DNA from: Sulfurimonas sp.
GTDB lineage: Bacteria > Campylobacterota > Campylobacteria > Campylobacterales > Sulfurimonadaceae
Length of the DNA stretch: 64,000 bases
Assembly: GCF_029027405.1 (NCBI RefSeq)
Contig: NZ_CP093396.1
Coordinates: 1,674,001 to 1,738,000 of the forward strand
Reading direction: 5' to 3'
Shown: one piece after another, positions 23,790-38,964 of the stretch
Layout of the letters: every line of letters starts with the position of its first letter
Position numbering within the stretch: position 1 is the stretch's first letter
Made by a program: the position numbers and the translations under genes
Notes under the pieces: model-generated
The model's database searches: none
The model's input: only the letters and a program-made list of their open reading frames with translations
What the model was told of the DNA's origin: nothing

Positions 23790-24872
23790 ATGAGTGAAAA
23801 AATGAAAAAAGCAGTTGACATAAAAAAACTCCTAAAGAGTGTTTTAGCCTACGGTTCGAGTGATTTACACCTTGTTGTTGGAAGTGAACCACAAATTAGA
23901 ATAGATAAAGAACTACGCCCACTTAATCTTGCTGTATTAAGTGCAAAAGATATTGAAGGAATGGCTTACGCACTTATAGAAGATAAACAAAAGAAAATTT
24001 TTGAAGATATAAACGAACTTGATTTTTCATTTGAGTTACAAGATATAGGTCGTTTTCGTGCTAATTACTACCGTACTATTGGTGGGATTGCTTGTGCTTT
24101 TCGTATGATTCCTATTGATATACCAACGCTTGATGAATATGGAAATCCTCCAATTTTTAAAGAACTTATAAAAAAAGAAAAAGGTCTTATTCTGGTTACT
24201 GGTCCAACAGGAAGTGGTAAATCAACCACATTAGCATCTATGCTTCATGAGATAAATATGACAGAAAGAAGACATGTTATTACAGTTGAAGACCCAGTTG
24301 AGTTTGTTCATAAAAATATAAAATCTCTTTTCTCACAAAGAGATGTCGGGAATGATACTGCTTCATTTGCATCTGCACTTAAATTTGCCCTGAGACAAGA
24401 TCCAGATATCATACTAATTGGGGAAATGCGAGATGCTGAAACTATTGGAGCAGCATTAACAGCGGCAGAGACAGGTCACTTGGTGTTTGGAACACTCCAT
24501 ACTAACTCTGCACCTGGAACTATTAACCGTATTATAGATGTTTTTGATGGAGAAGAGCAAGCTCAAATTAGAGCGCAATTAGCTTCTTCACTTGTAGCAG
24601 TTGTCTCTCAAACATTAATACCTCGTGTTGGTGGTGGTAAAGTTGCAACACAAGAGATTTTAATAACAAACCCTGCTATCCAAAATCAGATTAGAGAAGA
24701 CAAGGTTCATCAACTATACTCTCAAATGCAACTAAATCAAAATGAGACTCACATGTCTACGCAAACGCAAGAATTAATAGAGTTACTTCAAAAAAGAACA
24801 ATTACAAAAGAAAATGCTATTAAAAATTCAAACAGACCTGAAGAGCTTATTAAAATGATAGAAGGGTTATAG
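23790..24872 (+). CDS. pilT: PilT-like type IV pilus retraction ATPase
   Basis: The 360-residue hexameric ATPase shows GPTGSGKSTTLASM (Walker A), VITVEDPVEFVH (Asp box), LRQDPDIILIGEMRDAETI (Walker B) and AAETGHLVFGTLHTNSA (His box). The N-terminal PAS-like domain contains GSSDLHLVVGSEPQIRID. These are the PilT subgroup features, so it would retract pili in twitching or DNA uptake. No pilin genes are nearby. Confidence 0.92.
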   Translation: MSEKMKKAVDIKKLLKSVLAYGSSDLHLVVGSEPQIRIDKELRPLNLAVLSAKDIEGMAYALIEDKQKKIFEDINELDFSFELQDIGRFRANYYRTIGGIACAFRMIPIDIPTLDEYGNPPIFKELIKKEKGLILVTGPTGSGKSTTLASMLHEINMTERRHVITVEDPVEFVHKNIKSLFSQRDVGNDTASFASALKFALRQDPDIILIGEMRDAETIGAALTAAETGHLVFGTLHTNSAPGTINRIIDVFDGEEQAQIRAQLASSLVAVVSQTLIPRVGGGKVATQEILITNPAIQNQIREDKVHQLYSQMQLNQNETHMSTQTQELIELLQKRTITKENAIKNSNRPEELIKMIEGL

Positions 24873-24876
24873 CACT

Positions 24877-24937
24877 TAATATTAAATATTACTTAAACAT
24901 ACAACTTAATACATAATTAACACTTTTCCCTTATAAT
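24877..24937 (+). promoter_or_regulatory. Candidate promoter and operator of the TonB-reductase operon
   Basis: A perfect 7-1-7 palindrome, TAATATTAAATATTA, lies at 24877-24891, and TATAAT lies at 24932-24937, 38 bases before the receptor ATG. No good -35 box was found, common for this phylum. The 7-1-7 geometry recalls Fur sites but the bases do not match the consensus well. The receptor has AAGGGAAAG as ribosome-binding site. Confidence 0.4.
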
Positions 24938-24974: not shown

Positions 24975-27194
24975 ATGAAAAAAAGAGTTTATCTATCGGT
25001 TATCTGTGCGCTTGCAATTAATGTAGCGGCTTCAGATTTAGGAACAATACAGGTTGAATCATCAACAATTGATGATAAATTTGATACAAAAAAGTTCAAT
25101 GTATCAAGTACAGCAACAATGAGTGCTAAAGAAGTTGAGTCTTTCCATGCAGAAAATATTGCTGATGTTTTAAACACTATTCCAGGTGTTACTGTAAGAA
25201 AAAATGAGGGTGATTCGAACAAGATTCACATTAGAGGTATCGCAACTGAGATGTATATGGGAGAAAAACCTGGTGTAGCAATCGTAATCGATGGTGTACC
25301 TGTTCAAGAGAGAGCTGGAAGTGTTAATATTGATATTGATAATATTGAATCAATCAAAGTATTAAAAGGTGGAGCTTCATATCTATATGGTAATGATGCT
25401 ATTGCTGGTGCAATTATTATTACTACAACAAGACCTAAAAATAAGAACCAAGGTTTCGCTACTGCAGAAATAGGAAGTTATGGATATCAAAAATATTTAG
25501 CTTCATATAATATGGGTAAAGAAAATTTTGCAGCAAATGTTCAAGCAAGTTATAAAAAGAGTGATGGTTACTGGGAAGATTCAGATTACTCTATTAAATC
25601 TATAAATAGTAAATTTCAATACTATATAGATGATAGTAGTGATTTAACAATTGGTGCAGATAAGACCTTAAGATATGAAAATGATACAGGGTCAATAACA
25701 TATGCTACTTATAATGGAACTACTGGTGTATATACAAATAATGTCAATGATAATCCAAAAAGTGTTGGTCAAGTTGGTTATTCAACTAAAAATGACATTG
25801 ATTTAACAAAATTATTTTTAACATACTCTAAAAATTTTGATAATGGCTCAAACTTAATGGCTCAAATCTATCACTATGAAGATAGAACTATTAATGATAG
25901 TAGCCCAATTGACAGTAATGGCGATGGTATAAGAGATGAGCATAAATCAAAAGTCGATAAAAGTACAATTCAAAGAGGTTTAAAATCTGAGTATAGAATG
26001 GATGGTACTACATTGGCTTCTATGCTAGGAGTTGATATAGCTAGAAATGAAGAAACATCAAAAAGTAAATATAGAATTGAATATACAGATACAAGACCTC
26101 CTTTCACTGTTCATCCTATTGATGAAGTTACTCGTAATACAGAAGGTAAAGAAGATATCAATGCAATATATGGTGAGTTTAAGTATGTATTTACAAAAGA
26201 TTTTACTACTACACTAAATGCCAGATATGATAATATAAATTATGATTATAAAAATATATTAACTTCTAATGATTGGAGGACTAATTTTAATGAGAGTTCA
26301 TATAGAATTGGTGCTACTTATAAACTTGCAGATAAACAAGTGTTGTATGCTAGTGTATCAACAGGATTTAGAGTGCCAACACTGTCGCAATTATATGCAG
26401 GTGATATGTCAACATCATCTTACCCTGGAACATACGCCAATAACACAGATATTGATACTGAAAAAACATATAACTATGAAATTGGACTTAGACAAAAAAG
26501 TGGTTTACTATCTTATGAATTATCTATTTTTCAACTTGACAGAAAAAATGTTATCGGTAGAAGTAGTGGTAACTACGCATCTACCAAAGGTGTGGATGTA
26601 TATTATGACAACATGGCTGATGTTCAAAACAGAGGATTAGAGCTTAGTATAAAAAGTGATAAACAAAAAGATTTTTCATTTTTACTTAACTACACATACT
26701 TACATTCTGAATATACTAGATATGACAGATATACACATATTCTAAATGAGGGTGGCACTGCAAACGGTACTGACCAAAATGGTGATGGTGATTTTAGAGA
26801 TGATTATGTTGAAGGTGTTTATAATCTGGCTGGTAACAGAGTACCAAGAACATCAGAACATACAATCTTCCTGGAGGCTAATTATAGACCATTGAAAGGT
26901 TTACTGCTTACAGCTGACATAAACTATAGATCAAACCAAAATGCAGATGAGATGAATGAAATAAAAGTTGATGGATATTCGATTGTTAATCTAAGAGCTA
27001 AATATAATCTTAAAGTATCAGGTTTAGATATAGAAATATTTGCAAAAGTTGAAAATATTTTTGATAAACAATATTATATGATGCCTCGTGTTACTGGTGA
27101 TAGAAATGATGATGGACTATACGATGTAAGAGATATGGGATTGACTGTTAACCCTGGTAGAACTTTACTTGCTGGTCTTTCTGCAAAATTCTAA
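24975..27194 (+). CDS. TonB-dependent outer-membrane receptor
   Basis: The 739-residue protein has a signal peptide (MKKRVYLSVICALAINVAA), a plug domain (IADVLNTIPGVTVRKNEGDS, KIHIRGI, VAIVIDGVP, IESIKVLKGGASYLYGNDAIAGAI) and a barrel ending in LLAGLSAKF. It imports a substrate through the outer membrane using TonB energy. Three acidic loops with D-x-N-x-D-G (DSNGDGIRDE, DQNGDGDFRDD, DRNDDGLYDV) resemble calcium-binding loops and lie in the barrel part. The substrate cannot be named. It is the first gene of the operon that ends in tonB and includes exbB and exbD. Confidence 0.93.
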   Translation: MKKRVYLSVICALAINVAASDLGTIQVESSTIDDKFDTKKFNVSSTATMSAKEVESFHAENIADVLNTIPGVTVRKNEGDSNKIHIRGIATEMYMGEKPGVAIVIDGVPVQERAGSVNIDIDNIESIKVLKGGASYLYGNDAIAGAIIITTTRPKNKNQGFATAEIGSYGYQKYLASYNMGKENFAANVQASYKKSDGYWEDSDYSIKSINSKFQYYIDDSSDLTIGADKTLRYENDTGSITYATYNGTTGVYTNNVNDNPKSVGQVGYSTKNDIDLTKLFLTYSKNFDNGSNLMAQIYHYEDRTINDSSPIDSNGDGIRDEHKSKVDKSTIQRGLKSEYRMDGTTLASMLGVDIARNEETSKSKYRIEYTDTRPPFTVHPIDEVTRNTEGKEDINAIYGEFKYVFTKDFTTTLNARYDNINYDYKNILTSNDWRTNFNESSYRIGATYKLADKQVLYASVSTGFRVPTLSQLYAGDMSTSSYPGTYANNTDIDTEKTYNYEIGLRQKSGLLSYELSIFQLDRKNVIGRSSGNYASTKGVDVYYDNMADVQNRGLELSIKSDKQKDFSFLLNYTYLHSEYTRYDRYTHILNEGGTANGTDQNGDGDFRDDYVEGVYNLAGNRVPRTSEHTIFLEANYRPLKGLLLTADINYRSNQNADEMNEIKVDGYSIVNLRAKYNLKVSGLDIEIFAKVENIFDKQYYMMPRVTGDRNDDGLYDVRDMGLTVNPGRTLLAGLSAKF

Positions 27195-27218
27195 TAATAA
27201 ATAATATAGGTAAATATA

Positions 27219-27662
27219 ATGAACATAGAACTAATAAAAGATATTGTTGACTACGGTGTTATCGGCCTTCTAGGAGTTATGAGTTTCATGACTTTTTGGT
27301 TTTGGGTTGAAAGGATTCTTTTTTTTAGAGGAGTAGATGTAAACAGCTTCGAGACAAAAGAAGAGCTTGAAATTGAACTTACTAACAATATCAACATTAT
27401 CTCAACTTTTGGTTCTAATGCACCATATATTGGACTACTTGGTACAGTATTTGGAATTATCATAACTTTTTACTCTATGGGACAAGGCAGTGACTTGGAT
27501 GCCAAGACAATAATGACATCTTTAGCTCTTGCTCTAAAAGCTACTGCTATGGGACTTATAGTAGCAATTCCAGCCATAGTGTTTTATAACCATTTAGCTA
27601 GAAAAATTGAAGTTGTTCTAGCTTATTGGGATATAAAAGAAAAGAGAAAACTTGCAAATTAA
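27219..27662 (+). CDS. exbB: ExbB, TonB-system proton channel subunit
   Basis: The 147-residue protein has three membrane helices; the conserved block is NAPYIGLLGTVFGIIITFYSMG followed by SLALALKATAMGLIVAIPAIVFYN. This short ExbB is usual for Campylobacterota. With ExbD it harvests the proton gradient to drive TonB. It is 24 bases after the receptor and overlaps exbD by 11 bases. Confidence 0.92.
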   Translation: MNIELIKDIVDYGVIGLLGVMSFMTFWFWVERILFFRGVDVNSFETKEELEIELTNNINIISTFGSNAPYIGLLGTVFGIIITFYSMGQGSDLDAKTIMTSLALALKATAMGLIVAIPAIVFYNHLARKIEVVLAYWDIKEKRKLAN

Positions 27663-28032
27663 AAAATTTGATTCAATAAATGTAGTCCCGTTTATTGATA
27701 TTATGCTTGTACTTCTTGTAATAGTCCTTACTACTGCTACATTCGTAGCAAAAGGGATTATTCCCGTTGACCTTCCAAATTCAAAAACTGCAACAAAACA
27801 AAATAACAAAAAGAATCTTACTATTACAATAAAAAAGAATGGTGATATTTTATTTGACAAAGTGAAGGTCTTAAAAAAAGACATTATTTTAAAACTTTCA
27901 AAATATGATATAGAAATACCTGTTCATATCAACTGTGACAAAAATGCAAAGTTTGACCTGTTTGTTTCAGTTCTAGATTCCCTAGAAGAAAAAGAGTTTA
28001 AAAATCTTGGAATAATTACCAAGAAGAATTAA
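27652..28032 (+). CDS. exbD: ExbD, TonB-system subunit
   Basis: The 126-residue protein has one N-terminal helix with the proton-path aspartate (VVPFIDIMLVLLVIVLTTATF) and a periplasmic domain. The start is TTG at 27652, inside the exbB end, with AGAGAAAA upstream; no ATG is available close by. It completes the ExbB-ExbD-TonB motor encoded by this operon. Confidence 0.9.
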   Translation: MQIKKFDSINVVPFIDIMLVLLVIVLTTATFVAKGIIPVDLPNSKTATKQNNKKNLTITIKKNGDILFDKVKVLKKDIILKLSKYDIEIPVHINCDKNAKFDLFVSVLDSLEEKEFKNLGIITKKN

Positions 28033-28045
28033 GAAGAAAAATCAG

Positions 28046-28705
28046 ATGGAATATACAGCTTTTATATCAATATTTATCATTGGTCTCTCTTATGGAGCAA
28101 CAGCATGTATGTTCTCATGTATGCCGTTTCTAAGTCCTATTCTTATTAGTAATTCTAACAATACAAAGCAAGCACTAGGCATAATTGTGCCTTTTAGTCT
28201 TGGAAGAATATTTAGCTATACACTTATAGCAATTGTGGCGTATTTGAGTTCTGTATGGGTAAAGCAGATGCTAAATGACAATTATATTTTTAGCATTGTA
28301 TTGGGTGCTAGTACTATCTCTATGGGAGTATATCTATTTTACAAGAGCTTTAAATCAACTCGCTTTTGTGGACACACTACACCATTAATAAAAAAACCAA
28401 AGTTAAATAAACTTGGTTTTTTTACTATAGGTGCAACTATGTCCATAAATCCATGTGCTCCGATAATGGCACTCTTAGCAGTAGCAGCAAATAGTAGTAA
28501 TATTTACAACTCTATAGGACTAGGTCTGTTCTTTGGAGTCGGTGCTGTTATATTTTCAATTATATTTTATGGTTTTATAGTCTCAAAATTGATTAAGGGA
28601 TTGATGCTTCAATTCTCTTCTTACAAGCTTTTGATGGAGCGAATAGCAGCACTTCTACTAGTTACAGTAGGAATATTAGTATTAAACGGTGTTTTAGTAC
28701 TTTAA
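28046..28705 (+). CDS. DsbD/CcdA-like six-helix membrane protein
   Basis: The 219-residue membrane protein has cysteine motifs ACMFSCMPFLSP near its N-terminus and NPCAPIMALLAV in a middle helix, as in the DsbD/CcdA transmembrane domain that carries electrons from cytoplasmic thioredoxin to the periplasm. Metal-transport relatives share this fold. Position between exbD and the polyferredoxins suggests thiol reduction or metal handling for the operon's periplasmic domains. It follows exbD by 13 bases. Confidence 0.7.
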   Translation: MEYTAFISIFIIGLSYGATACMFSCMPFLSPILISNSNNTKQALGIIVPFSLGRIFSYTLIAIVAYLSSVWVKQMLNDNYIFSIVLGASTISMGVYLFYKSFKSTRFCGHTTPLIKKPKLNKLGFFTIGATMSINPCAPIMALLAVAANSSNIYNSIGLGLFFGVGAVIFSIIFYGFIVSKLIKGLMLQFSSYKLLMERIAALLLVTVGILVLNGVLVL

Positions 28706-28717
28706 AAAAGGTAAATA

Positions 28718-31099
28718 ATGGTAGATTTTATAAAACGAGACAAAGATGATATTTATTCTAAGCCGATAATAGGTTTTTTATTTAAAAACCAAAAGTTTTT
28801 AATGACTCTAAAAATAATAGTCTTAGCTCTATTTTTATATGCTATATACTATGGTTACACTCATACAGGTAAAGACAACTTGTTTACTTGGGCTGTATTT
28901 TGGGGTATCTTTTGGTCTCTGTTTATGGTTATTACTCTGCCTACTTTAGGAAGAGTTTTCTGTGGCATCTGCCCTCATGGTTTTATAGGAAAATACATTA
29001 CAAAATTTGGTTTGAAAAAAACTATGCCAAAATGGATGCAAAACCAGTATATAGGTCTTTTACTTCTTGTTATTGGATGGTGGGGAATTTACTATATGTT
29101 CCCTGGAATCTACAGAACAGCTATAGGAACTGCTGTTATGTTTAGTGTTATGACTCTAATCTCTTTTGTAGTATATTTTTTGTATAAAGATATGAGTTAC
29201 TGTAAATATGTTTGTCCTATTGGAACACTAACTAGAGCCTACTCAAAACTATCATTTACATGGTTGGGAACTTATAAAAGTGCTTGTAATGAATGTAAAA
29301 CATTTGAGTGTGCAACTGCTTGTCCTTATAACTTAAAACCATTTACATTTGATAAAAGAAATTCTATGACTGAGTGTACCCTATGTATGGATTGTAGCTC
29401 TGCATGTGAAGCGGTTAGTTTCAAAGTCAAAAAACCATCATTTTCTTTATTCTCAAAATTTCAACCTTTAAAAGCAGAAGTATGGGCATTTATTCTTATA
29501 CTTGCTGCTATTCCAATTACTATGTCATTTCACCATGGAATCGGACGAAGTAATGCTGCGGGGGATATGATTTGGTCAAAAACAGCAGAGTTCTTCAAAA
29601 GTTTTATTAGTTTTGGTTCAGTAGACCCTATCGGTTTATTTGCATTTCTTTATGCGATGCTATTTACTATTGTAGCGGCTCTTGTTGGTATGTTTATAGC
29701 ATCTAAGATTCTTCAAAAAGATTTCTCCAAAATACTTTATGATCTTGGATACTCTTATGCTCCACTATTTATATTAGGTTCTATCGCTCACTCGTTAGAG
29801 GCATTTTTCATAAGAGGATATGAAAAAATAGTAGAAGGATTTGCTCAAGGTTTTGGATTTAGCGTTGATGTATCATCTCTGGCAAATAGAGGAGATAGTT
29901 GGCTACATATGTTTGGCATATTCAAATGGATTGCAATAGCTTGGGCATTAATCATACTTTATAAAAGAATGAAACTACTAGATGTTCATAAGATGAGAAA
30001 GATTGTAGCCTACCCTTTTGCGGCATCTTTAATCATTTTCTTCCTAAGTATTAATATGTACAGATCACATATCTTAGATACATATGGCAGAGCTTCAGGC
30101 GGGCATGGTAATCATAGTACAAAAGTATTTCAAAGTACTTCAACTCCAGAAGACTTTAAAAGAAGAGCCACTCAAAGTTATAAAAAACCAACAGCATTTG
30201 ATACCGTATATTTTTCAGATACTAATCCTGCAGCCAAAAAGAAAAAATATGGGGGAGGACATAATCATGGTCGCGATAGAAATAAAGTAGCATCGAAAAA
30301 AATGTGGCCTATCTTTGAAGACAATTCTGGAAAAAAGAACTGCTTGGGTAACATAGATGCTGATCTTTATGTTCTAGATGCTAACTTAATAACAACAAAA
30401 CTAACTGGGTCAAAAGATAGAGGCTGCAAATCTGTTAGTTTTAAAATGCCTAATAATGGATACTACAACCTCTACTATAATAGTAGAACACTCCAAGATA
30501 ACACTCTTTATATTCAAACAGCAAAGTATGAGAAAATGAGATTTAATCATAGTAACGATGCTATTTATGACGAAGAAAAAATGTCAGCTCACACAATTTT
30601 TGAAGTACCTTTTGATATTTTAAGACTAAGAGAAGACGGAGAGACATTTTATTATCGTCTATATTCAGGCGACAAAATAAGACTAAAAGTTATGCTCAAC
30701 TCTAAAGCAATTCAAAATGCATCTCTTACACTGTCAACTAAAACAGGTTGGTCAAAAACTATTAAAACAGATAAAGATGGAGTAGCAGTTTTCACACTTC
30801 TTAAAGATTATTTTCCCAAATGGAATAAGTTTGACAGAAGACATAAGAACCAATTTTTACTCACTGCAAATTACACAGAAAATTCTAAAGGTACACATAA
30901 TGATAAAGAGTATGGTTCTATAAACTACGAATCGACATATACATCTATTTACTATCCAGCAGAGAGTGCTTATAGATCTTACGCTTACGGTCTGTTTGCT
31001 GCAACTGCTACAGCTATACTATCTGGGTTTGCTATATACTGGTTTAGAAAAAGAAGACAAAAACCTTTTAAAGAGGTGAGATTTTATGAAAAAAATTAG
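28718..31099 (+). CDS. NosR/NapH-like membrane polyferredoxin fused to a periplasmic DUF4198-like domain
   Basis: The 793-residue protein is mosaic. Residues 30-175 hold membrane helices with CGICP (82-86) and CKYVCP (162-167), the C-x-x-(x)-C-P motifs of NosR/NapH. Two [4Fe-4S] sites follow: C190/193/198/202 and C220/223/226/230. More helices (about 255-450) lead to two His-rich stretches, GGHGNHS (461-467) and GGGHNHGRD (512-520). A beta domain at about 545-745 resembles DUF4198, found in nickel-uptake components. The protein ends with a helix at 755-777. It probably passes electrons across the inner membrane to a metal-binding periplasmic domain. The last assignment is inference. Confidence 0.72.
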   Translation: MVDFIKRDKDDIYSKPIIGFLFKNQKFLMTLKIIVLALFLYAIYYGYTHTGKDNLFTWAVFWGIFWSLFMVITLPTLGRVFCGICPHGFIGKYITKFGLKKTMPKWMQNQYIGLLLLVIGWWGIYYMFPGIYRTAIGTAVMFSVMTLISFVVYFLYKDMSYCKYVCPIGTLTRAYSKLSFTWLGTYKSACNECKTFECATACPYNLKPFTFDKRNSMTECTLCMDCSSACEAVSFKVKKPSFSLFSKFQPLKAEVWAFILILAAIPITMSFHHGIGRSNAAGDMIWSKTAEFFKSFISFGSVDPIGLFAFLYAMLFTIVAALVGMFIASKILQKDFSKILYDLGYSYAPLFILGSIAHSLEAFFIRGYEKIVEGFAQGFGFSVDVSSLANRGDSWLHMFGIFKWIAIAWALIILYKRMKLLDVHKMRKIVAYPFAASLIIFFLSINMYRSHILDTYGRASGGHGNHSTKVFQSTSTPEDFKRRATQSYKKPTAFDTVYFSDTNPAAKKKKYGGGHNHGRDRNKVASKKMWPIFEDNSGKKNCLGNIDADLYVLDANLITTKLTGSKDRGCKSVSFKMPNNGYYNLYYNSRTLQDNTLYIQTAKYEKMRFNHSNDAIYDEEKMSAHTIFEVPFDILRLREDGETFYYRLYSGDKIRLKVMLNSKAIQNASLTLSTKTGWSKTIKTDKDGVAVFTLLKDYFPKWNKFDRRHKNQFLLTANYTENSKGTHNDKEYGSINYESTYTSIYYPAESAYRSYAYGLFAATATAILSGFAIYWFRKRRQKPFKEVRFYEKN

Positions 31100-32066
31100 A
31101 GACTTTATAAACAAAGCAGATATTCGAAAATTTCGTTTTTGGCTGCAACTGTTTTTCTTTGTCATCTTTATATACGGCGGTTACTTTTCTATTAATTTGG
31201 GAAATAGTATTCCTGTATTTTCATGTGGTTACGATAGAGAAGTTGGAGGTATGTGTTACTTTCTGCCTCTGCAACATCAACTGGCTCGTCCTTTGGATGT
31301 ACTCTTTAGCGTAGCAAGCATCTCAGTTCTTATAGGTTTTATAACTTTTTTACTATGGTTTATAGTATTTAATAAGGCTTGGTGTGGTTATGCTTGTCCT
31401 CTTGGAACTATGCAAGACTGGTTAACGGGTCTTAGAAAAAAGATGGGTATCAGGTACAGTACTTATACGCAAGCACAATTTAGTAAACTAAAAAAGATAA
31501 AGTACATTATGCTCGCACTTGTAATTTTAGCACCTATGGCTGTTGGTATAGGACTTCTTGGCGGTGAGTGGAGAACAGCATTTTGTGAGATTTGTCCGGG
31601 AAGAATGATAACACCTCTTTTTGTAGGCGATGTGTCTCAATGGAGTTTAGACTTCTCAACAAAAAGTGCGATGATTCTTACTTCACTAGGGTTAGTATTT
31701 ACTGGTCTATTTGTAGTTGGTTCGTTTGTTAAAAAAAGATTCTTCTGTTTTTTCTGTCCTATGAGTGCCATGCACTACATCTTTAGTGATGCGGCACTTT
31801 TAAAGCTTAAAAAAGATGGTGACAAGTGTACAAAATGTGGTGACTGCTACACAGTTTGCGATATGCAAATAAAAGATATTGCTGATGATGTAACAAGTAC
31901 GAATATCTTAAGAGATGACTGTATTTTATGTATGAAGTGTGTGGCTGCTTGTCCAGAAGATGATGCCCTGCATGTTGACTTTATAAATTACCCGATATTT
32001 AAATCTACTAAAGGTGGCTTTGCTAAAAGAATGCAAATGGATAAGTGGGAGAAAAAAGATGACTAA
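31086..32066 (+). CDS. NapH-like membrane ferredoxin
   Basis: The 326-residue protein has four helices and the NapH/NosR cysteine motifs CGYACP (100-105), CEICP (167-171) and CFFCP (221-225). Two classical [4Fe-4S] ferredoxin sites follow at C248/251/254/258 and C279/282/285/289. Such proteins move electrons between quinol and other carriers on the cytoplasmic side. It overlaps both neighbours (14 and 8 bases). It is a likely donor or acceptor for the double-cubane protein encoded next, or partner of the preceding polyferredoxin. No napG or napA is present, so it is not nitrate reductase. Confidence 0.82.
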   Translation: MKKIRDFINKADIRKFRFWLQLFFFVIFIYGGYFSINLGNSIPVFSCGYDREVGGMCYFLPLQHQLARPLDVLFSVASISVLIGFITFLLWFIVFNKAWCGYACPLGTMQDWLTGLRKKMGIRYSTYTQAQFSKLKKIKYIMLALVILAPMAVGIGLLGGEWRTAFCEICPGRMITPLFVGDVSQWSLDFSTKSAMILTSLGLVFTGLFVVGSFVKKRFFCFFCPMSAMHYIFSDAALLKLKKDGDKCTKCGDCYTVCDMQIKDIADDVTSTNILRDDCILCMKCVAACPEDDALHVDFINYPIFKSTKGGFAKRMQMDKWEKKDD

Positions 32067-33336
32067 AAATATGAGAGAACATACGATAGAGACTCCAAAA
32101 GAAAAACAAAACCGTCACAAAGCTATGGAAGCTATCTCAGTTTTAGACAAAATAAAACATGAGTTTAAAGAACCTCCAAAGTCTATGGATTATTTTTACA
32201 ATCTTTTTGAGAGTGTACATTGCAAACATGAGCCTCTACATAGTGACAAAGTAAAAGTTGGTACTATGTGTATCCAAGTACCATCTGAAATCATCTACGC
32301 TCTAGATGCTGTTCCACTTAGGCTATGTAACGGTTTTTATACTAATGATGAGATAGGAAGTGACCTGCTTCCTTCTAAAGCATGTCCTTTAGTTAAAGCA
32401 ACTGTAGGACAGTTTGCATCTGATAATTTCTCCGATAAACCAGATGTGGTTATATCTCCTACAACTTGTGATCAAAAAGCAAAATCTGGTGCTATTATAG
32501 AAGAGATGGGATTTTCAGTCTATGATATGGAGTTTCCTAGAACAAAAGAGAGTGAAGAGAGCCGTGAGTATTGGAGACGCAGTGTTAGAAAATTTACAAA
32601 AGAGTTGTCAAATAATTTAGGTAAAAAACTAACTAAAAAGAAGTTAAAAGAGTCCATACAAAAAGTCGGTTTCGCTCAGCATCTCTATCACAGACTAAAT
32701 GTTTTAAGAAAAAATATAAATGTTCCTATATCTGGAGTAGATATGTTCATGATTACTAATGCTTTTTTCTTCGATAAAATAGATAACTGGATAGAAGCCA
32801 TCGAAGCAGTTGCAAAAGAGTGTGAGCAGAGAGTAGAAGATGAAATCAGTATGGCACATAAGAGAAGTCCAAGAATTGTCTATACAGGTTCCCCTCCTAT
32901 ATTTCCAAACCTTAAAGTCCCTCTTCTTATAGAGCAATCAGATGCTATTATCGTTGCAGATGAGACATGTTCATCAAACAGAATGTTTAACGATATGGTG
33001 AGTGTTGATGAGTGGTTTGTAAATGACATGGTTGATGGTATTGCAGACAGATATCTAAAAGGGTGTACATGTCCGATATTTACAAAAAATGAAGATAGAA
33101 AAAGAAGAATTATTGATTTAGTAAAAGATTATAAGGCAGATGGTGTTGTTTATCAGGCTTTTGCAGGATGCCAAGTATATGAGATGGAACAAAGATCTGT
33201 TTTAGAAGCTATGGAGAAAGAAGGAATCCCTATCATTTACCTTGAGAGTGATTATTCTCCTAGTCATTTAGGACAGCTGACAACTAGAATCGAAGCATTT
33301 GTAGAATCACTAAAAAACAGAAGAAGGAAGCGTTAA
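32059..33336 (+). CDS. Double-cubane-cluster-type protein (2-hydroxyacyl-CoA dehydratase D / BcrC family)
   Basis: The product (425 residues from the ATG at 32059, which has GGGAG ahead; a longer frame from 32014 is inside napH) belongs to the HgdB/BcrC/YjiM family. It is a single chain, not an alpha/beta pair, as in double-cubane cluster proteins that do ATP-driven low-potential reductions. Ten cysteines are present, including C71 (GTMC), C90, C109 (KACPL), C137 (TTCDQ), C304 (DETCSS), C336/C338 (GCTCP) and C371 (AGCQ), more than the three ligands of a simple dehydratase cluster. Its activator is encoded immediately downstream. Substrate unknown. Confidence 0.82.
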   Translation: MTKNMREHTIETPKEKQNRHKAMEAISVLDKIKHEFKEPPKSMDYFYNLFESVHCKHEPLHSDKVKVGTMCIQVPSEIIYALDAVPLRLCNGFYTNDEIGSDLLPSKACPLVKATVGQFASDNFSDKPDVVISPTTCDQKAKSGAIIEEMGFSVYDMEFPRTKESEESREYWRRSVRKFTKELSNNLGKKLTKKKLKESIQKVGFAQHLYHRLNVLRKNINVPISGVDMFMITNAFFFDKIDNWIEAIEAVAKECEQRVEDEISMAHKRSPRIVYTGSPPIFPNLKVPLLIEQSDAIIVADETCSSNRMFNDMVSVDEWFVNDMVDGIADRYLKGCTCPIFTKNEDRKRRIIDLVKDYKADGVVYQAFAGCQVYEMEQRSVLEAMEKEGIPIIYLESDYSPSHLGQLTTRIEAFVESLKNRRRKR

Positions 33337-34145
33337 TGCAGTATTTTGCAGGGATAGATATAGGTTCAACTGCTATTAAAGTTGCACTTGTAGATGAGAA
33401 TAAGAAGTTAGTGGGACATAGAATAAGTGCCAGTGGAAGCATGTTCTATAAATATGCGAAGCAAAGTTTAAAAGAGATGCTTATTGAACTTAATATAGAT
33501 GAAGAAGATTTAGTTTATACCGTGTCAACAGGATATGGGAGAAAACTATTTAAAGAAGCCGATGAAAATATAAGTGAAATCACTGCAAATGCAATTGGTG
33601 CTAGAGCGGCTACGGCAGATAAGTGTGAAATAAAAACCATTATTAATATTGGTGGACAAGATTCTAAAGCAATTTCACTAGATAGTGAAGGAAATGTAGT
33701 AAATTTTGCCATGAATGACAGATGTGCAGCCGGAACTGGAAAATTTTTAGATGTTGTTGCCATGAATTTGGAACTTGAAGTTGACGAGTTAGGTGATTAT
33801 CACTTTAAATCAAAGGGTACACCACTAGCTATTAATAGTACTTGTGCAGTCTTTGCTGAGTCAGAGATTATAGGACTTTTAGGAAATGACAATAGTGTAG
33901 AAGATATAGTTGCTGGAGTTCACTACTCTATAGCAAAAAGAATCATCAAACTAGTAAAGAGAGTCGGTATAAAAGAGAATATCTATTTTGATGGTGGTCC
34001 AGCTCTTAACGGTGGTTTAGTTCATGCTATTGAGAATGAGCTTGGAAAAGAGATCTTCATTCCTGAGTTTCCACAAATAACTACATCATATGGAGCGGCA
34101 ATTTTGGCACATGAGTCTCATACATATGAAAACGAGGTAGACTAA
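33336..34145 (+). CDS. ATP-dependent activator (BadF/BadG/BcrA/YjiL family)
   Basis: The 269-residue protein is an ASKHA-fold ATPase with GIDIGSTAIKVAL (1-17), STGYGRKLF, NIGGQDSKAI and NDRCAAGTGKFLD. C130 and C170 (in INSTCAVFAESEII) are the two cysteines that bind a [4Fe-4S] cluster between the subunits of the dimer. It would inject one low-potential electron into the partner protein at the cost of ATP. It overlaps the upstream gene by one base (TAATG), so the two are surely partners. Confidence 0.9.
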   Translation: MQYFAGIDIGSTAIKVALVDENKKLVGHRISASGSMFYKYAKQSLKEMLIELNIDEEDLVYTVSTGYGRKLFKEADENISEITANAIGARAATADKCEIKTIINIGGQDSKAISLDSEGNVVNFAMNDRCAAGTGKFLDVVAMNLELEVDELGDYHFKSKGTPLAINSTCAVFAESEIIGLLGNDNSVEDIVAGVHYSIAKRIIKLVKRVGIKENIYFDGGPALNGGLVHAIENELGKEIFIPEFPQITTSYGAAILAHESHTYENEVD

Positions 34146-34148
34146 TTA

Positions 34149-37100
34149 ATGTTTGAAAGAGTATTAAACTTTTTTATTGATAACTATAAAATTAACTATA
34201 TTCTATTTTTTCTACTATTTGGAGTTGGAATCTTTGCATATACTCAGATTCCAAAAGAGATATCTCCTACTATAGAGCCTAACTCGGTAACCATAAGAGG
34301 CTCATATAGCGGTGCATCTGTAGATACACTAAATAAAATGGCTGTACAAGAAATCGAAGAGGAAGTAAAAAATATTGTCGGGGTTGAAAGTGTAACATCA
34401 GTAGTATCCCCAGGAAGATTTTCAATAATTTTAGAGCTTGTAAAGGGTGCAGAAAAAACAGAAGTTATCACAAAAGTTGAAGATGGCATATCTTTAATAA
34501 GAGAAAACCTTCCAAGTGATATGGATGAACCTGTAATAAGAGGAGTTGCACACTCAAGAAGTATCATGCATGTATCTATGATATCTCACGAAATACATAG
34601 AAACCAACTAAAAGCACTCTCAAAAAAGTTTAAAAGCAGACTTCTTTCAATCGAAAATGTTTCAGATGTAACTATATTCGGAGATTCTGAACTCTTTTAT
34701 GAAGTGTTAATAGATGAGAAAAAAGTAAATGCTTATAATATTTCTCTTGATGAAGTACTGCGTGTATTTTCAGAAGTATCATATATATTTCCTCTTGGTA
34801 AAATAGAAAACCTCAAACAGCAGTACTATATCTCTGCTCACAATGACAAAAGACAGTCTTATGAGCTTGAAAGTACTATCTTAAACATAGATAATCAACG
34901 CATCGAACTAAAAGACATAGCTAAAATAACTAAGAGATATGAAGATGCATCTACACTTGCAAGTATGAATGGGAATAACTCTATCACACTTGCCGTTTCA
35001 CAAAATCCAAAAGGTGATGCAGTTAAAATAGCCGAAGATATCAAAACACTCATATCCAAGATGAAAGTAAAAGGTGTTAACTTCGATGTCAGAATGGATA
35101 AATCAACTGTTATAAAAGATAGACTAAATATTGTTATCTCTAACATCCTACTTGGTGTGATTCTGATTACTGTACTAACTGCAATACTTATAAATATCCG
35201 TATTGCTTTTATTATCGCTTTGGGTATTCCAACATCTTTTGTTATGGGTGCTATTTACTTCTACTTTACAGGGCACAGTATCAATGTCAACTCTCTTGTT
35301 GGTGTGCTTATTGCCATTGGTATTATCGTCGATGATGCTATTGTTGTGAGTGAAAATATACAACAGTACATAGAAAAAGGTTATTCCCCAAGAGAAGCTG
35401 CGTTTTTGGGTACAAAAGAGATGGCTAAACCTGTGACTATTGCATCTATAACAACTCTCTTTTCTTTTATACCTCTACTGATGCTAAGTGGAAGACTTGG
35501 AGAGATAATACAGCTTATACCAATAGCATTCTCCGCTCTTGTTATAGCTTCACTTATAGAGTCGTTTATATTTTTACCTATTCACGCTTCACACACTCTC
35601 TCGGCAAAATCAAGGACTCTCTCGTGGGACAGAGTAAATGCACTCTACCTAAGAGTTCTCATACAACTTGTAAAGTATCAAAAGACTTTCTTACTTACAT
35701 TTGTAATAATCGTACCTACCCTGATTTACTACGGTATAAAAAGTTCAAAGTATCAAATGTTTCAGCCATTTGATTCTTCATCAATTAATATAACTTTTAA
35801 GGCTAAGCCTACAACTACTTTAGAAGAATCACTAGAGATTATTCAGACTTTAGAAAAAAGTATTTTAAAAGAGAAAGATAGATTTTTTCTAAAACATGTA
35901 AGTTCTACTGCCGGATATAGAAGAAGTGCGACAGGTTCTGCTGAGATGTATCCTTATGTAGGATATATCTCTCTTGAACTGCATAAAATGGAACCTTCAA
36001 ACTTTGTAGACAAATATATTACTCCGTACCTTAGTTTCTATTATGACCCTACTGACAGAGTAAGAGATAAATCTTCACAAGCAATATCTAAAGACCTTAG
36101 AACTTGGCTCAAAGAGCAAAAATACAAAAAAAGCTTTAACCTAAGCAACCTAATGGTTGTTGAGAGAAAAATGGGACATACAAAAGCTGATATACGCATC
36201 GGTATCATCAGTGAAGATTATCAAAAGGCTATAAAGACCATACGAGAAATAGAAAACAGTTTCTCTAAAATAGACGGTATAAAGTACTTTGGAGACAATG
36301 TTAAAACAGGACTTGATGAGATAAAGATAAAACTAAATTCTTACGGTGAAGATTTAGGTATTACAGAGAGTTCTCTTGGTAAATATATATCCGGTCTATA
36401 CCTCACAAGAAAAGTTGGTACTATCTTTGACGGGAACGAACTTGTAGATGTAAAAGTAAAATCATTCAATATTGAAGATGACTTGGAGAGTTTTAAAAGA
36501 CTGGAGATTCCTCTTAAAGATGGTGTCTTTGTAAAGTTAAAAGATATATGTGAGTTTGAAAAAGTTGAGTCTCTGGAGAGACTTGTTAAAGATGATGGCG
36601 AAACTAACTTTTATGTCTTTGCTAATGTAAATCCTTCCATAGTAACAGCAACAGAGGTTTTACAAATGATATCTCCAACTATCAAAAAGCTAAAAGAAGT
36701 AAAGGGTATAAAACTCAAATTTAAAGGTGAGAGAGAGCAAAAAAGAGTTATGCAGACTGAAATGATTTTAGCATCTGGACTTGCTGTTATACTTATATTT
36801 ATATCTATACTCTACCTTTTTAACTCTATAAGAGAGACTATGATAGTTATGTCTGTTATTCCTTTTTCTCTTCTTGGTGTCTATGCAGGGCATTTTATTA
36901 TGGGTTTAAATATTTCACTACCATCTCTCATCGGTGCATTAGGATTAGCCGGAGTTATTGTCAATGACGGTATTATTATGATGGCAACTATAAAAAAGGC
37001 AAAGACTAAAGATGATATATTTCTTCTTGCTCCAAGAAGGCTGAGACCTATTATGCTAACTTCTATCACAACTATTATAGGTCTATCATCTCTGATATTT

Positions 37101-37238
37101 TTTGCAACAGCACAAGCTGTAACATTTCAGCCTTTGGCAGTTACCATAGGTTTTGGACTTTTGTGGGGGACTATACTAAATCTTTTTTATCTCCCGACAA
37201 TGTATAACTTTTTCCATAAGTACAGGGCAGATTCATGA
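34149..37238 (+). CDS. RND-family transporter
   Basis: The 1029-residue inner-membrane protein has the RND layout: one N-terminal helix, two large periplasmic domains, and two sets of helices. The TM4 proton-relay pair is in IAIGIIVDDAIVVSENI, and LGLAGVIVNDGIIMM is the corresponding TM10 part. It is close to the HAE/AcrB group. It lies three bases after the activator gene and overlaps tonB by four. No adaptor or outer-membrane factor is in this operon; candidates are in the convergent operon (38954-40183 and 43055-43852). Its substrate may be the product or intermediate of the reductive system. Confidence 0.9.
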   Translation: MFERVLNFFIDNYKINYILFFLLFGVGIFAYTQIPKEISPTIEPNSVTIRGSYSGASVDTLNKMAVQEIEEEVKNIVGVESVTSVVSPGRFSIILELVKGAEKTEVITKVEDGISLIRENLPSDMDEPVIRGVAHSRSIMHVSMISHEIHRNQLKALSKKFKSRLLSIENVSDVTIFGDSELFYEVLIDEKKVNAYNISLDEVLRVFSEVSYIFPLGKIENLKQQYYISAHNDKRQSYELESTILNIDNQRIELKDIAKITKRYEDASTLASMNGNNSITLAVSQNPKGDAVKIAEDIKTLISKMKVKGVNFDVRMDKSTVIKDRLNIVISNILLGVILITVLTAILINIRIAFIIALGIPTSFVMGAIYFYFTGHSINVNSLVGVLIAIGIIVDDAIVVSENIQQYIEKGYSPREAAFLGTKEMAKPVTIASITTLFSFIPLLMLSGRLGEIIQLIPIAFSALVIASLIESFIFLPIHASHTLSAKSRTLSWDRVNALYLRVLIQLVKYQKTFLLTFVIIVPTLIYYGIKSSKYQMFQPFDSSSINITFKAKPTTTLEESLEIIQTLEKSILKEKDRFFLKHVSSTAGYRRSATGSAEMYPYVGYISLELHKMEPSNFVDKYITPYLSFYYDPTDRVRDKSSQAISKDLRTWLKEQKYKKSFNLSNLMVVERKMGHTKADIRIGIISEDYQKAIKTIREIENSFSKIDGIKYFGDNVKTGLDEIKIKLNSYGEDLGITESSLGKYISGLYLTRKVGTIFDGNELVDVKVKSFNIEDDLESFKRLEIPLKDGVFVKLKDICEFEKVESLERLVKDDGETNFYVFANVNPSIVTATEVLQMISPTIKKLKEVKGIKLKFKGEREQKRVMQTEMILASGLAVILIFISILYLFNSIRETMIVMSVIPFSLLGVYAGHFIMGLNISLPSLIGALGLAGVIVNDGIIMMATIKKAKTKDDIFLLAPRRLRPIMLTSITTIIGLSSLIFFATAQAVTFQPLAVTIGFGLLWGTILNLFYLPTMYNFFHKYRADS

Positions 37239-37924
37239 ACAGATATATCTCATCATTTATAATCAGTTCTATTTTTTATTTAACCATAATTACAGGACTA
37301 ATTTATTTTGTAAGTATTGATGACAGTTGCAAAGCAGATGTAAACATAAAGGCAACTAAAAGAGTCTGCTTCTCTATCGTAACACAACCGGAGACTTCTA
37401 AGCCAAAAATAGAAAAAAAAACTAAGCCAAAGAAAAAACCAAAATCAAAACCAAAATCAAAACCAAAACCGAAACCAAAACCGAAACCAAAGATGTTACC
37501 TGTTTCGGTTAAAGAAGAGCTTATTCCGGAACTAATACCAGAGCCTATAGTAGAGGGAACAGAAGTAGTTGAAGAAGAAACTAAAGAGGTTGTTGAGCCT
37601 ATCACAGAGGCTCAAAACAAAATCAATCATGAAGTTGTTCAGGCAAAACAAGATCTGTTTATTAGTCATTTAATCCATAAAATAAATAGTAATAAGTCCT
37701 ATCCAAATATGGCTAGAAGAAGAGGGATAGAGGGTCTTGTAAATGTTAAGTTCAAGATACTATCAGATGGTAATGTAGAAGACATTAAAATAGTTTCAGG
37801 AAGAAGTATCTTTAAAAAATCAACGATAGAGGCAATTTCTAGAAGTTTTCCTGTTATCGTAAAAGATTCACTATTTGACTTCCCAAGAGAATTCAAAATA
37901 AATATTTCATATATTTTAAAATAA
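37235..37924 (+). CDS. tonB: TonB
   Basis: The 229-residue protein has an N-terminal anchor helix, a lysine/proline-rich linker (KPKSKPKPKPKPK around 65-85), an acidic stretch with EPIVEGTEVVEEETKEVVEP, and a C-terminal TonB domain (SYPNMARRRGIEGLVNVKF, then DIKIVSGRSIFKKSTIEAI). It couples ExbBD to the receptor encoded 10 kb upstream. It overlaps the RND stop in an ATGA. It ends the operon; the next gene faces it. Confidence 0.9.
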   Translation: MNRYISSFIISSIFYLTIITGLIYFVSIDDSCKADVNIKATKRVCFSIVTQPETSKPKIEKKTKPKKKPKSKPKSKPKPKPKPKPKMLPVSVKEELIPELIPEPIVEGTEVVEEETKEVVEPITEAQNKINHEVVQAKQDLFISHLIHKINSNKSYPNMARRRGIEGLVNVKFKILSDGNVEDIKIVSGRSIFKKSTIEAISRSFPVIVKDSLFDFPREFKINISYILK

Positions 37925-37956: not shown

Positions 37957-38964
37957 TTAAAATATTTTTCTAAACTTAATCATCTTAAACCGTTCACCTA
38001 AAAAATTTGGCATTATCAGCATCTTCGCTTTTTGGAGTTCTTGTTCATAAATCTTTTCATCAGCATTGTCCTTTAGAATCTCTAGTAGGTTTAAAATACC
38101 CATATCTATAAGAGCGACCATTTGAGCCTTTAGCTCTATAAACTCTACTCCAGCTTCTTCATAAGCATCTTTAACATGCTCAAATGTAACATCATAAGTA
38201 ATATCAGATTTTTTAAATAACTCTTCTCGTTTTATATCTTCTTGGAAAAATGGTATTACATTATGGTTTTCATAAACTCTCAATGAAAAGTCAGGTCGAG
38301 CTTGCATCTCTCCATAATCAAAGCTCATAAACTCAAACTTTTTACAAGATTTAGCCATACTTAAAGCGAACTCTTCATAACCAAGGGCAATTTCACCTCT
38401 TGATTTGTTATACTTTTGTGCTTTTTGTTTTACCCATTCATTATCTACATCAAACTCTATTTCATGCCCATCAACTCTTGCTGTTTTACCTTTATAAAAA
38501 AGCTCACAAGAAAAAGCATCAAATATTTCATTTGCTATAAAAAAAGCATTTTCACATTTCAACTCATCTAAAGATTTATAATGAGTAAGAGAAACAACAT
38601 CTCCAAAAGAGCTTTGAAAATAGTTTCTCTGCTGCTCTTGAAGGTCATCAAACCTTTCTATGATGACAAACTTCAGAGTATTTAGAAGTTTCGGTCTAAG
38701 AGTAAATATAAACTCAATAACATCTGCTAAAAAGTATCCATGATGAGCACCAATCTCACAAATAACACTATTTTTATGCAAAAAGCCTTCATCAACTAAA
38801 GAGATAATATGTTTTGCTATTGTTCCACCAAAAAATTTACTTGTACTTACAGCAGTATAAAAGTCACCTTTTTTTCCAATATTTTTATATTTAGTATAAT
38901 AACCATCTTTGCCATAGAGCCATTCATTCATATACTCACTGAAAAGAGTACTATTATTTTTCAT
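37957..38964 (-). CDS. MidA/NDUFAF7-family SAM-dependent methyltransferase
   Basis: The 335-residue protein matches the DUF185/MidA group: FSEYMNEWLYGKDGYYTK, GDFYTAVSTSKFFGGTIA, VICEIGAHHGYFLADV (SAM motif I), FFIANEIFDAF and MSFDYGE. Relatives methylate an arginine of a complex I subunit. It overlaps the tolC gene by 11 bases at the end of a leftward operon and converges on tonB. Confidence 0.78.
   Translation of the reverse strand: MKNNSTLFSEYMNEWLYGKDGYYTKYKNIGKKGDFYTAVSTSKFFGGTIAKHIISLVDEGFLHKNSVICEIGAHHGYFLADVIEFIFTLRPKLLNTLKFVIIERFDDLQEQQRNYFQSSFGDVVSLTHYKSLDELKCENAFFIANEIFDAFSCELFYKGKTARVDGHEIEFDVDNEWVKQKAQKYNKSRGEIALGYEEFALSMAKSCKKFEFMSFDYGEMQARPDFSLRVYENHNVIPFFQEDIKREELFKKSDITYDVTFEHVKDAYEEAGVEFIELKAQMVALIDMGILNLLEILKDNADEKIYEQELQKAKMLIMPNFLGERFKMIKFRKIF

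Follow-up and report, generated by a model that had tools for sequence, protein, structure and literature searches.

The operon and its products

The operon described here lies in the genome of a Sulfurimonas sp. (2.83 Mb in a single contig, NZ_CP093396.1, assembly GCF_029027405.1), within a stretch of 64,000 nucleotides (positions 1,674,001 to 1,738,000 of the forward strand) which we call the window, and whose coordinates are used below. Ten plus-strand open reading frames, from 24975 to 37924, join TonB-dependent uptake genes to those for a double-cubane cluster protein (DCCP), its ATPase activator and two membrane polyferredoxins. A sequence-only reading of the window had named ten nearly gapless, same-strand genes of these families; open reading frames and hidden Markov models (HMMs) agree with that gene list, and all ten lie where it placed them. 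The features are:

24906-24923, then 24932-24937; plus strand; regulatory direct repeat TTAATA-N5-TTAACAC, then a -10-like TATAAT, 5′ of the whole operon
24975-27194; plus strand; TonB-dependent receptor, 739 aa (HMM)
27219-27662; plus strand; ExbB, 147 aa (TIGR02805 over cut-off)
27652-28032; plus strand; ExbD, 126 aa, alternative start codons possible (HMM)
28046-28705; plus strand; DsbD_2/CcdA-like membrane protein, 219 aa (HMM, DsbD_2)
28718-31099; plus strand; NosR/CcoG-like membrane polyferredoxin fused to a DUF4198-type periplasmic domain (HMM, Fer4_5; predicted model)
31086-32066; plus strand; NapH-like polyferredoxin, 326 aa, four transmembrane helices (HMM)
32059-33336; plus strand; clade-B DCCP, HGD-D family (HMM, tree)
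33336-34145; plus strand; ASKHA ATPase activator, 269 aa (CoA_E_activ over cut-off)
34149-37238; plus strand; RND permease, 1029 aa, an optional part of the module (HMM)
37235-37924; plus strand; TonB, 229 aa (HMM, TonB_C)

Gaps within the operon are of 24, 13, 12 and 3 bases, and the remaining junctions overlap by 1-14 bases. The gene on the 5′ side, which its sequence marks as pilT, ends at 24872 and so leaves 102 bases for a promoter region, and the gene on the 3′ side (37957-38964) is convergent, on the opposite strand. On the sequence evidence the ten-gene operon is real and not a chance assembly, because the gene set recurs across several Campylobacterota families, as described below. 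Flanking genes, among them those for an aldehyde dehydrogenase, TrkH and a glycyl-tRNA synthetase, were judged to be unrelated to it.

The DCCP matches NF040772 over its full length at 348.4 bits, just below the cut-off of 350; members of its clade score 314-370. Its start at 32059 is consistent with an ATG, and a GTG lies 45 bases upstream (32014). Numbered from that GTG, the cluster cysteines C86, C105, C124, C152, C319 and C386 are all invariant, their columns being kept in 30/30 clade-B sequences, in 10 comparison sequences (9 of them clade A) and in the Carboxydothermus protein; on what is known of this family, we take these six to be the ligands of an [8Fe-9S] cluster. Clade B adds an invariant C351 and a near-invariant C70, and is split from the ordinary clade-A DCCPs in the tree with support 1.0 (one clade-B sequence, L205, bears the prefix A_ in the tree labels, having come from the comparison batch, and falls inside clade B). 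The protein encoded here has no signal peptide. The activator, whose gene adjoins that of the DCCP, has invariant cysteines C130 and C170, which would hold its bridging cluster.

The protein that the sequence-only reading called NosR-like deserves the name only in part: residues 1 to about 465 hold Fer4_5, two CxnCP and two 4Fe-4S motifs and match the polyferredoxin part of NosR, whereas the C-terminal third is a DUF4198-like periplasmic domain (residues about 526-746, window 30293-30955), with a His-rich linker before it and a C-terminal transmembrane segment after it. No FixG family model reached threshold for this protein in Pfam and NCBIfam. The domain was modelled at a pLDDT of mostly about 75-94 (mean for the full-length protein 67.9), and its top Foldseek matches were Zcp (Zn-, Cu- and Co-bound entries, E 7.5e-10 to 8.7e-8) and the Ni-bound DUF4198 protein 9gcb, with probability 1.0 and TM-scores on the target of 0.58-0.67, so the model points to a DUF4198/Zcp fold. 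By sequence the match to PF10670 (DUF4198) is weak (19.3 bits, E 0.0013, below the cut-off of 34). The N-terminal histidine chelate of DUF4198 proteins, formed after signal cleavage, is not found in the NosR-like protein, since fusion of the domain behind a membrane polyferredoxin rules out a free N-terminus.

The NapH-like protein has two cytoplasmic 4Fe-4S sites and two CxnCP motifs. It has 16 invariant cysteines, 12 of which are shared with the ordinary NapH of the same genome; the extra C47, C57, C167 and C170, absent from that ordinary NapH, are invariant in 32/32 sequences and lie in two loops on the side facing away from the ferredoxin domain. With that domain inside, these four would be on the extracytoplasmic side. 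Four cysteines are also invariant in the DsbD_2 protein (C21-x3-C25, C108 and C137), while orthologs of the module receptor have invariant H85 and M95 and a near-invariant H629. The operon includes neither a membrane fusion protein nor a TolC partner for the RND permease.

Conservation of the module in Campylobacterota

A scan of genome contigs with the NosR-like protein gave 47 loci, of which all those with informative names are from Campylobacterota (4 are titled only ‘bacterium’); the closest named loci are mostly labelled Sulfurimonas or related Campylobacterota. Beyond the phylum, the search covered close relatives of the NosR-like protein only. The NosR-like, NapH-like and DCCP genes are contiguous in 23/47 loci, and the usual order of what we call the module is: receptor, (ExbB, ExbD), DsbD_2, NosR-like, NapH-like, DCCP, activator, (RND), (ExbB, ExbD), TonB. 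Thus the conservation that the sequence-only reading proposed as a check is found, in several families, and its ten-gene set holds for this genome; elsewhere, however, it is not a fixed unit, as RND is absent from many homologous loci and ExbBD/TonB are absent or displaced in many. Two loci (L045, L052) have no adjacent receptor and retain the promoter box described below.

Sister modules comprise a receptor, a short NosR-like protein (about 475 aa, with no DUF4198 extension) and often TonB, and have no DCCP. In another group of variants (L148, L149, L151, L152, L205) a DUF4198-like protein, NapH, DCCP and DsbD_2 are present without the NosR-type membrane half, two of these (L152, L205) also having no adjacent activator copy. 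The minimal clade-B set in such loci is a receptor, a DUF4198-like protein, NapH, DCCP and DsbD_2, which suggests that NapH, DUF4198 and DsbD_2 are the steadier partners of the DCCP. The same RND subfamily also stands beside the DCCP-less NosR-like type (L154:2736-5879, L153:5372-8455), so RND appears to follow the receptor/polyferredoxin pair and not the DCCP specifically.

Searching 298 genomes of the phylum with NF040772 gave 36 strong copies (430-510 bits; clade A) and 19 that were weaker but complete (314-370 bits, from 17 genomes; clade B), plus fragments. All 19 weaker copies are associated with the module, as judged by a NosR-like/DUF4198 match within a few kilobases or by the annotated locus, against 0/36 of the strong ones. 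Four genomes (G209, G229, G241, G292) carry both types, and there too the strong copies lie outside the module; in nine strong-type contexts that were inspected the activator was the sole companion. This upholds the view that TonB uptake, a single-chain DCCP and its activator form one functional unit. Independent occurrence of uptake and reductase genes as a rule had been named as what would refute that view, and the outcome was the opposite, split-off exbBD-tonB promoters usually keeping the box.

Some further features of these loci were noted. Small proteins that are HMA-like by sequence appearance lie near clade-A DCCP genes (L198:80-361, L201:7874-8152). Small EF-hand-like proteins with a signal-like N-terminus recur near several of the loci (L160:17014-17421, L120:3624-3920, L155:10329-10991, L202:1987-2373), and in the L160 protein alone an HMM found the EF-hand. 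In searches of plasmids the module turned up in Sulfurovum mangrovi only, on a 395-kb plasmid (L210, NZ_CP087125.1 347856-373178), where a second TonB receptor lies behind the RND gene and the first is annotated as two pieces.

A promoter box common to copper genes

The upstream regions of the modules have in common a TTAACA-N5-TTAACAC direct repeat, with a TATAAT-like -10 following some 9 bases later (the window has TTAATACATAATTAACAC at 24906-24923 and TATAAT at 24932-24937), a layout that would be expected of an OmpR/PhoB-type activator. Matches of at least 11/13 precede 18/21 DCCP modules, 15/15 sister modules and 5/6 separate exbB promoters, and the reversed pattern reaches that level in 4/42 of the same upstream regions. 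Across 24 module-bearing genomes there are 38 exact boxes (in 22/24 genomes) and 5 reversed-pattern matches, as against 3 exact boxes in 24 comparison genomes with no NosR-like match or only an ordinary NapH-type match. The module-bearing genomes were picked for the NosR-like family, so the module itself supplies part of the 38; it is the off-module boxes that give independent evidence.

In the 17 off-module stretches that were fetched, with about 18 boxes, every off-module box is intergenic. Eight precede TonB receptors that score best with the TonB-copper model (in every case below its strict cut-off), and others precede three NosL genes, PCuAC and, in a relative, DsbD_2 followed by ccoN; by sequence inspection ccoN also lies behind two of the box-bearing receptors, and nosZ behind one. 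In the Sulfurimonas genome itself the other clear site (11/13) is 5′ of a NosA-type receptor, which scores 190 with TIGR01778 against a cut-off of 472. A survey of PCuAC in 60 relatives, a weak test with 6 positives and none in the genus of the window, found an exact box before one and a 12/13 box before another. The box is thus a cis-element common to the module and copper genes and rare in genomes without the module. The common denominator of the regulon would be copper import and cuproenzyme assembly, which makes induction at low copper probable; we infer the sign of this regulation.

Of 30 nosZ loci, about half also have a box near nosZ, close to the start or on the divergent strand. In four (L168, L185, L187, L188) the box is just before the nosZ start and on the nosZ strand, in some adjoining the ribosome-binding site, and this could mean that nosZ is repressed by the same regulator; in seven others (L172, L175, L177, L178, L181, L182, L190) it is on the strand divergent from nosZ. 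A strict tie of the module to N2O reductase was rejected, as several module genomes (G289, G116, G134, G139) are without nosZ.

As for the regulator, an OmpR-type response regulator and a short histidine kinase are encoded directly 5′ of the module at L160:3988-5491 and L158:9149-10649, with an 11/13 box before the response-regulator gene in L160. This pair is a candidate regulator of the box. Its distant counterpart in the Sulfurimonas genome (38%, G000:C1 about 1054638-1056112) has another ExbB/ExbD pair behind it. Two other readings of the promoter were discarded: no convincing Fur box was found 5′ of the receptor (best 10-12 of 19), and a PhoB/phosphate reading of the TTAACA repeat does not suit a genome without a PF12849 phosphate-binding protein, nor the copper genes that neighbour the box.

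Proposed reductive copper acquisition, its rivals and known systems

Taken together, the genomic comparisons argue that the uptake and reductase genes belong together and that their regulon is copper-related, and leave the chemistry undecided. We propose, with about even confidence, that the module carries out copper-regulon, TonB-dependent uptake of (chelated) copper, with electrons from the DCCP passing via NapH to the periplasm for reductive release. The receptor, powered by the ExbB-ExbD-TonB proteins of the operon, would import a metal complex (most likely copper in chelated form) to the periplasm, where the DUF4198-type domain of the NosR/CcoG-like protein would bind metal. The cytoplasmic ATPase activator would load electrons onto the DCCP; the NapH-like and NosR/CcoG-like polyferredoxins would form a wire across the inner membrane, electrons passing from the DCCP to the cytoplasmic 4Fe-4S sites of NapH, then to its membrane CxnCP motifs and on to the outer-face four-Cys site. 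A bound Cu(II)-ligand complex could so be reduced to Cu(I) and released for cbb3 oxidase and N2O reductase, while DsbD_2 may keep the outer-face thiols reduced or move Cu(I), and the RND pump, where present, may export the freed ligand. The analysis shows the gene set, its conservation, its place in the regulon, a predicted metal-binding fold and the kept cysteines; copper as substrate, the direction of electron flow, the role of DsbD_2 and ligand export are what we infer. A stronger form of the proposal is offered tentatively, and as rather unlikely: an ATP-driven inner-membrane electron pump, in which a nitrogenase-like DCCP and its ATPase would send low-potential electrons along a NapH wire, with its outer-face cysteine site, to a periplasmic metal-binding domain, and so strip copper from strong ligands that a dedicated TonB system delivers.

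Several observations weigh against reductive copper acquisition. The argument for copper as substrate is one of regulon membership and association, and the DUF4198 protein of known structure binds nickel in preference to copper (PMC12537917). The top HMM matches of the window receptor are siderophore- and PqqU-type models, all below cut-off, and it has no match at E 0.001 to TIGR01778 (NosA/OprC copper receptors). Five off-module boxes (L120, L121, L122, L125, L130) have no clear copper link, their genes being for DUF4405, a cytochrome bd-like/c550 fusion, DUF1104 and an unannotated 582-aa protein, with one having no called gene; and no box was found in the stretch of the Sulfurimonas genome with the nosZ start. 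The AlphaFold model of the NapH-like protein is of low confidence (pLDDT 58), so its four-Cys site is a topology argument. Finally, reduction of Cu(II) needs no very low potential, and an ATP-driven DCCP is therefore unexplained by copper chemistry alone; because of this poor fit, a role of the DCCP as cytoplasmic catalyst and non-copper explanations, each unlikely, keep substantial weight.

The first of these, doubtful as it is, also has copper being taken up, and the DCCP acting in the cytoplasm, on the copper complex once imported or on the organic ligand, by reductive release or destruction of the metallophore, with the polyferredoxins feeding the activator. The regulon evidence applies to it equally, DCCPs do reduce small molecules (PMC11971306) and the one here has no signal peptide; a hard-to-reduce ligand would explain the ATP-driven, low-potential electrons, and the RND pump could export the residue. 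However, by HMM the operon has no evident inner-membrane importer for an organic complex, and the cysteines that are invariant on the outer face of NapH, like the conserved metal-binding domain in the periplasm, point to periplasmic redox work. The sequence-only reading likewise had reduction in the cytoplasm, with electrons from membrane ferredoxins, and this is not supported or undecided, as those same features fit the opposite direction at least as well; its suggestion that the RND pump handles product fares no better, RND being optional.

It is quite unlikely that the complex taken in by the module is instead one of another metal (nickel, iron or cobalt) and that the common regulator senses redox or respiratory state and not copper. 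A nickel-binding DUF4198 example has NikR/TonB neighbours (PMC12537917), Fur-regulated DUF4198 genes lie beside a ferric-reductase system in Caulobacter (PMC3751524, PMC11870441), the module receptor is siderophore-receptor-like and some box genes are respiratory; but among the box genes none was recognised as a nickel or iron gene, the NosA/OprC-type receptors, NosL, PCuAC and ccoN have copper in common, and the upstream region has no convincing Fur box. Of the two substrates guessed in the sequence-only reading, the metal chelate is the one that the regulon evidence favours, with copper as the metal. Very improbable is a DCCP that is a copper-independent stand-in enzyme (for a nitrogen compound, for example), co-expressed when copper enzymes fail, beside uptake genes of separate function in the same regulon: the regulon does take in cytochrome bd-like genes and genes linked to nosZ, and small N-containing molecules are among those that DCCPs reduce (PMC11971306), but DCCP, NapH, DUF4198-like domain and receptor are contiguous in one operon across families, and the module also occurs in nosZ-less genomes.

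For stand-alone double-cubane proteins no physiological substrate is known (PMC11971306). One DCCP clade is now tied, by strict neighbourhood and a common promoter element, to copper handling, in hosts many of which encode N2O reductase; the purpose of double-cubane enzymes becomes a testable question, and a copper regulon is suggested for Campylobacterota. Reductive copper acquisition, if true, would extend reductive metal uptake from heme and flavin reductases to ATP-driven iron-sulfur chemistry, and the electron pump, if true, would for the first time give a stand-alone double-cubane protein a physiological role and would add a new type of reductive metal acquisition.

Known systems resemble parts of the module. 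CcoG, a polyferredoxin with an Ig-like periplasmic domain, reduces Cu(II) and not Fe(III) (PMC7558416); CcoG (FixG) is likewise a membrane polyferredoxin with two 4Fe-4S sites, a periplasmic C-terminal domain (Ig-like in CcoG) and a copper link, but the NosR-like protein exceeds it in length, ends in a DUF4198/Zcp-like domain and is encoded together with TonB uptake genes. In Bordetella pertussis, CrtA/CrpH comprises a TonB receptor for chelated copper and a PepSY_TM putative periplasmic copper reductase (PMC12914433, PMC13038864), and so also has a TonB receptor and an inner-membrane redox protein in a copper-linked operon serving heme-copper oxidases; in the module, polyferredoxins with a DUF4198-like domain, DCCP and activator replace the PepSY_TM heme protein, and the essential barrel histidine H358 of CrtA has no evident counterpart among the invariant residues of the module receptor. 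The Fur-regulated DUF4198/DUF2271/PepSY/ApbE locus of Caulobacter similarly has, within a metal-starvation regulon, a DUF4198 protein next to a reductase of the inner membrane, whereas the module is without PepSY, DUF2271 and ApbE and has a direct-repeat box with no evident Fur box. NosR and NapH of denitrification share Fer4_5 and NapH-type membrane ferredoxins with it, but here the NosR flavin domain is missing and four more cysteines sit on the outer face of the NapH-like protein. In BzdN the double cubane has been proposed to be an electron-transfer/storage cofactor (PMC11971306). The Carboxydothermus DCCP (PDB 7yyl/6eno) and E. coli YjiM share with the module DCCP the HGD-D fold family, the six cluster cysteines and an ASKHA activator; unlike them, the module DCCP forms a separate clade with C351 and C70, and is always found within the TonB/NapH/DUF4198 module.

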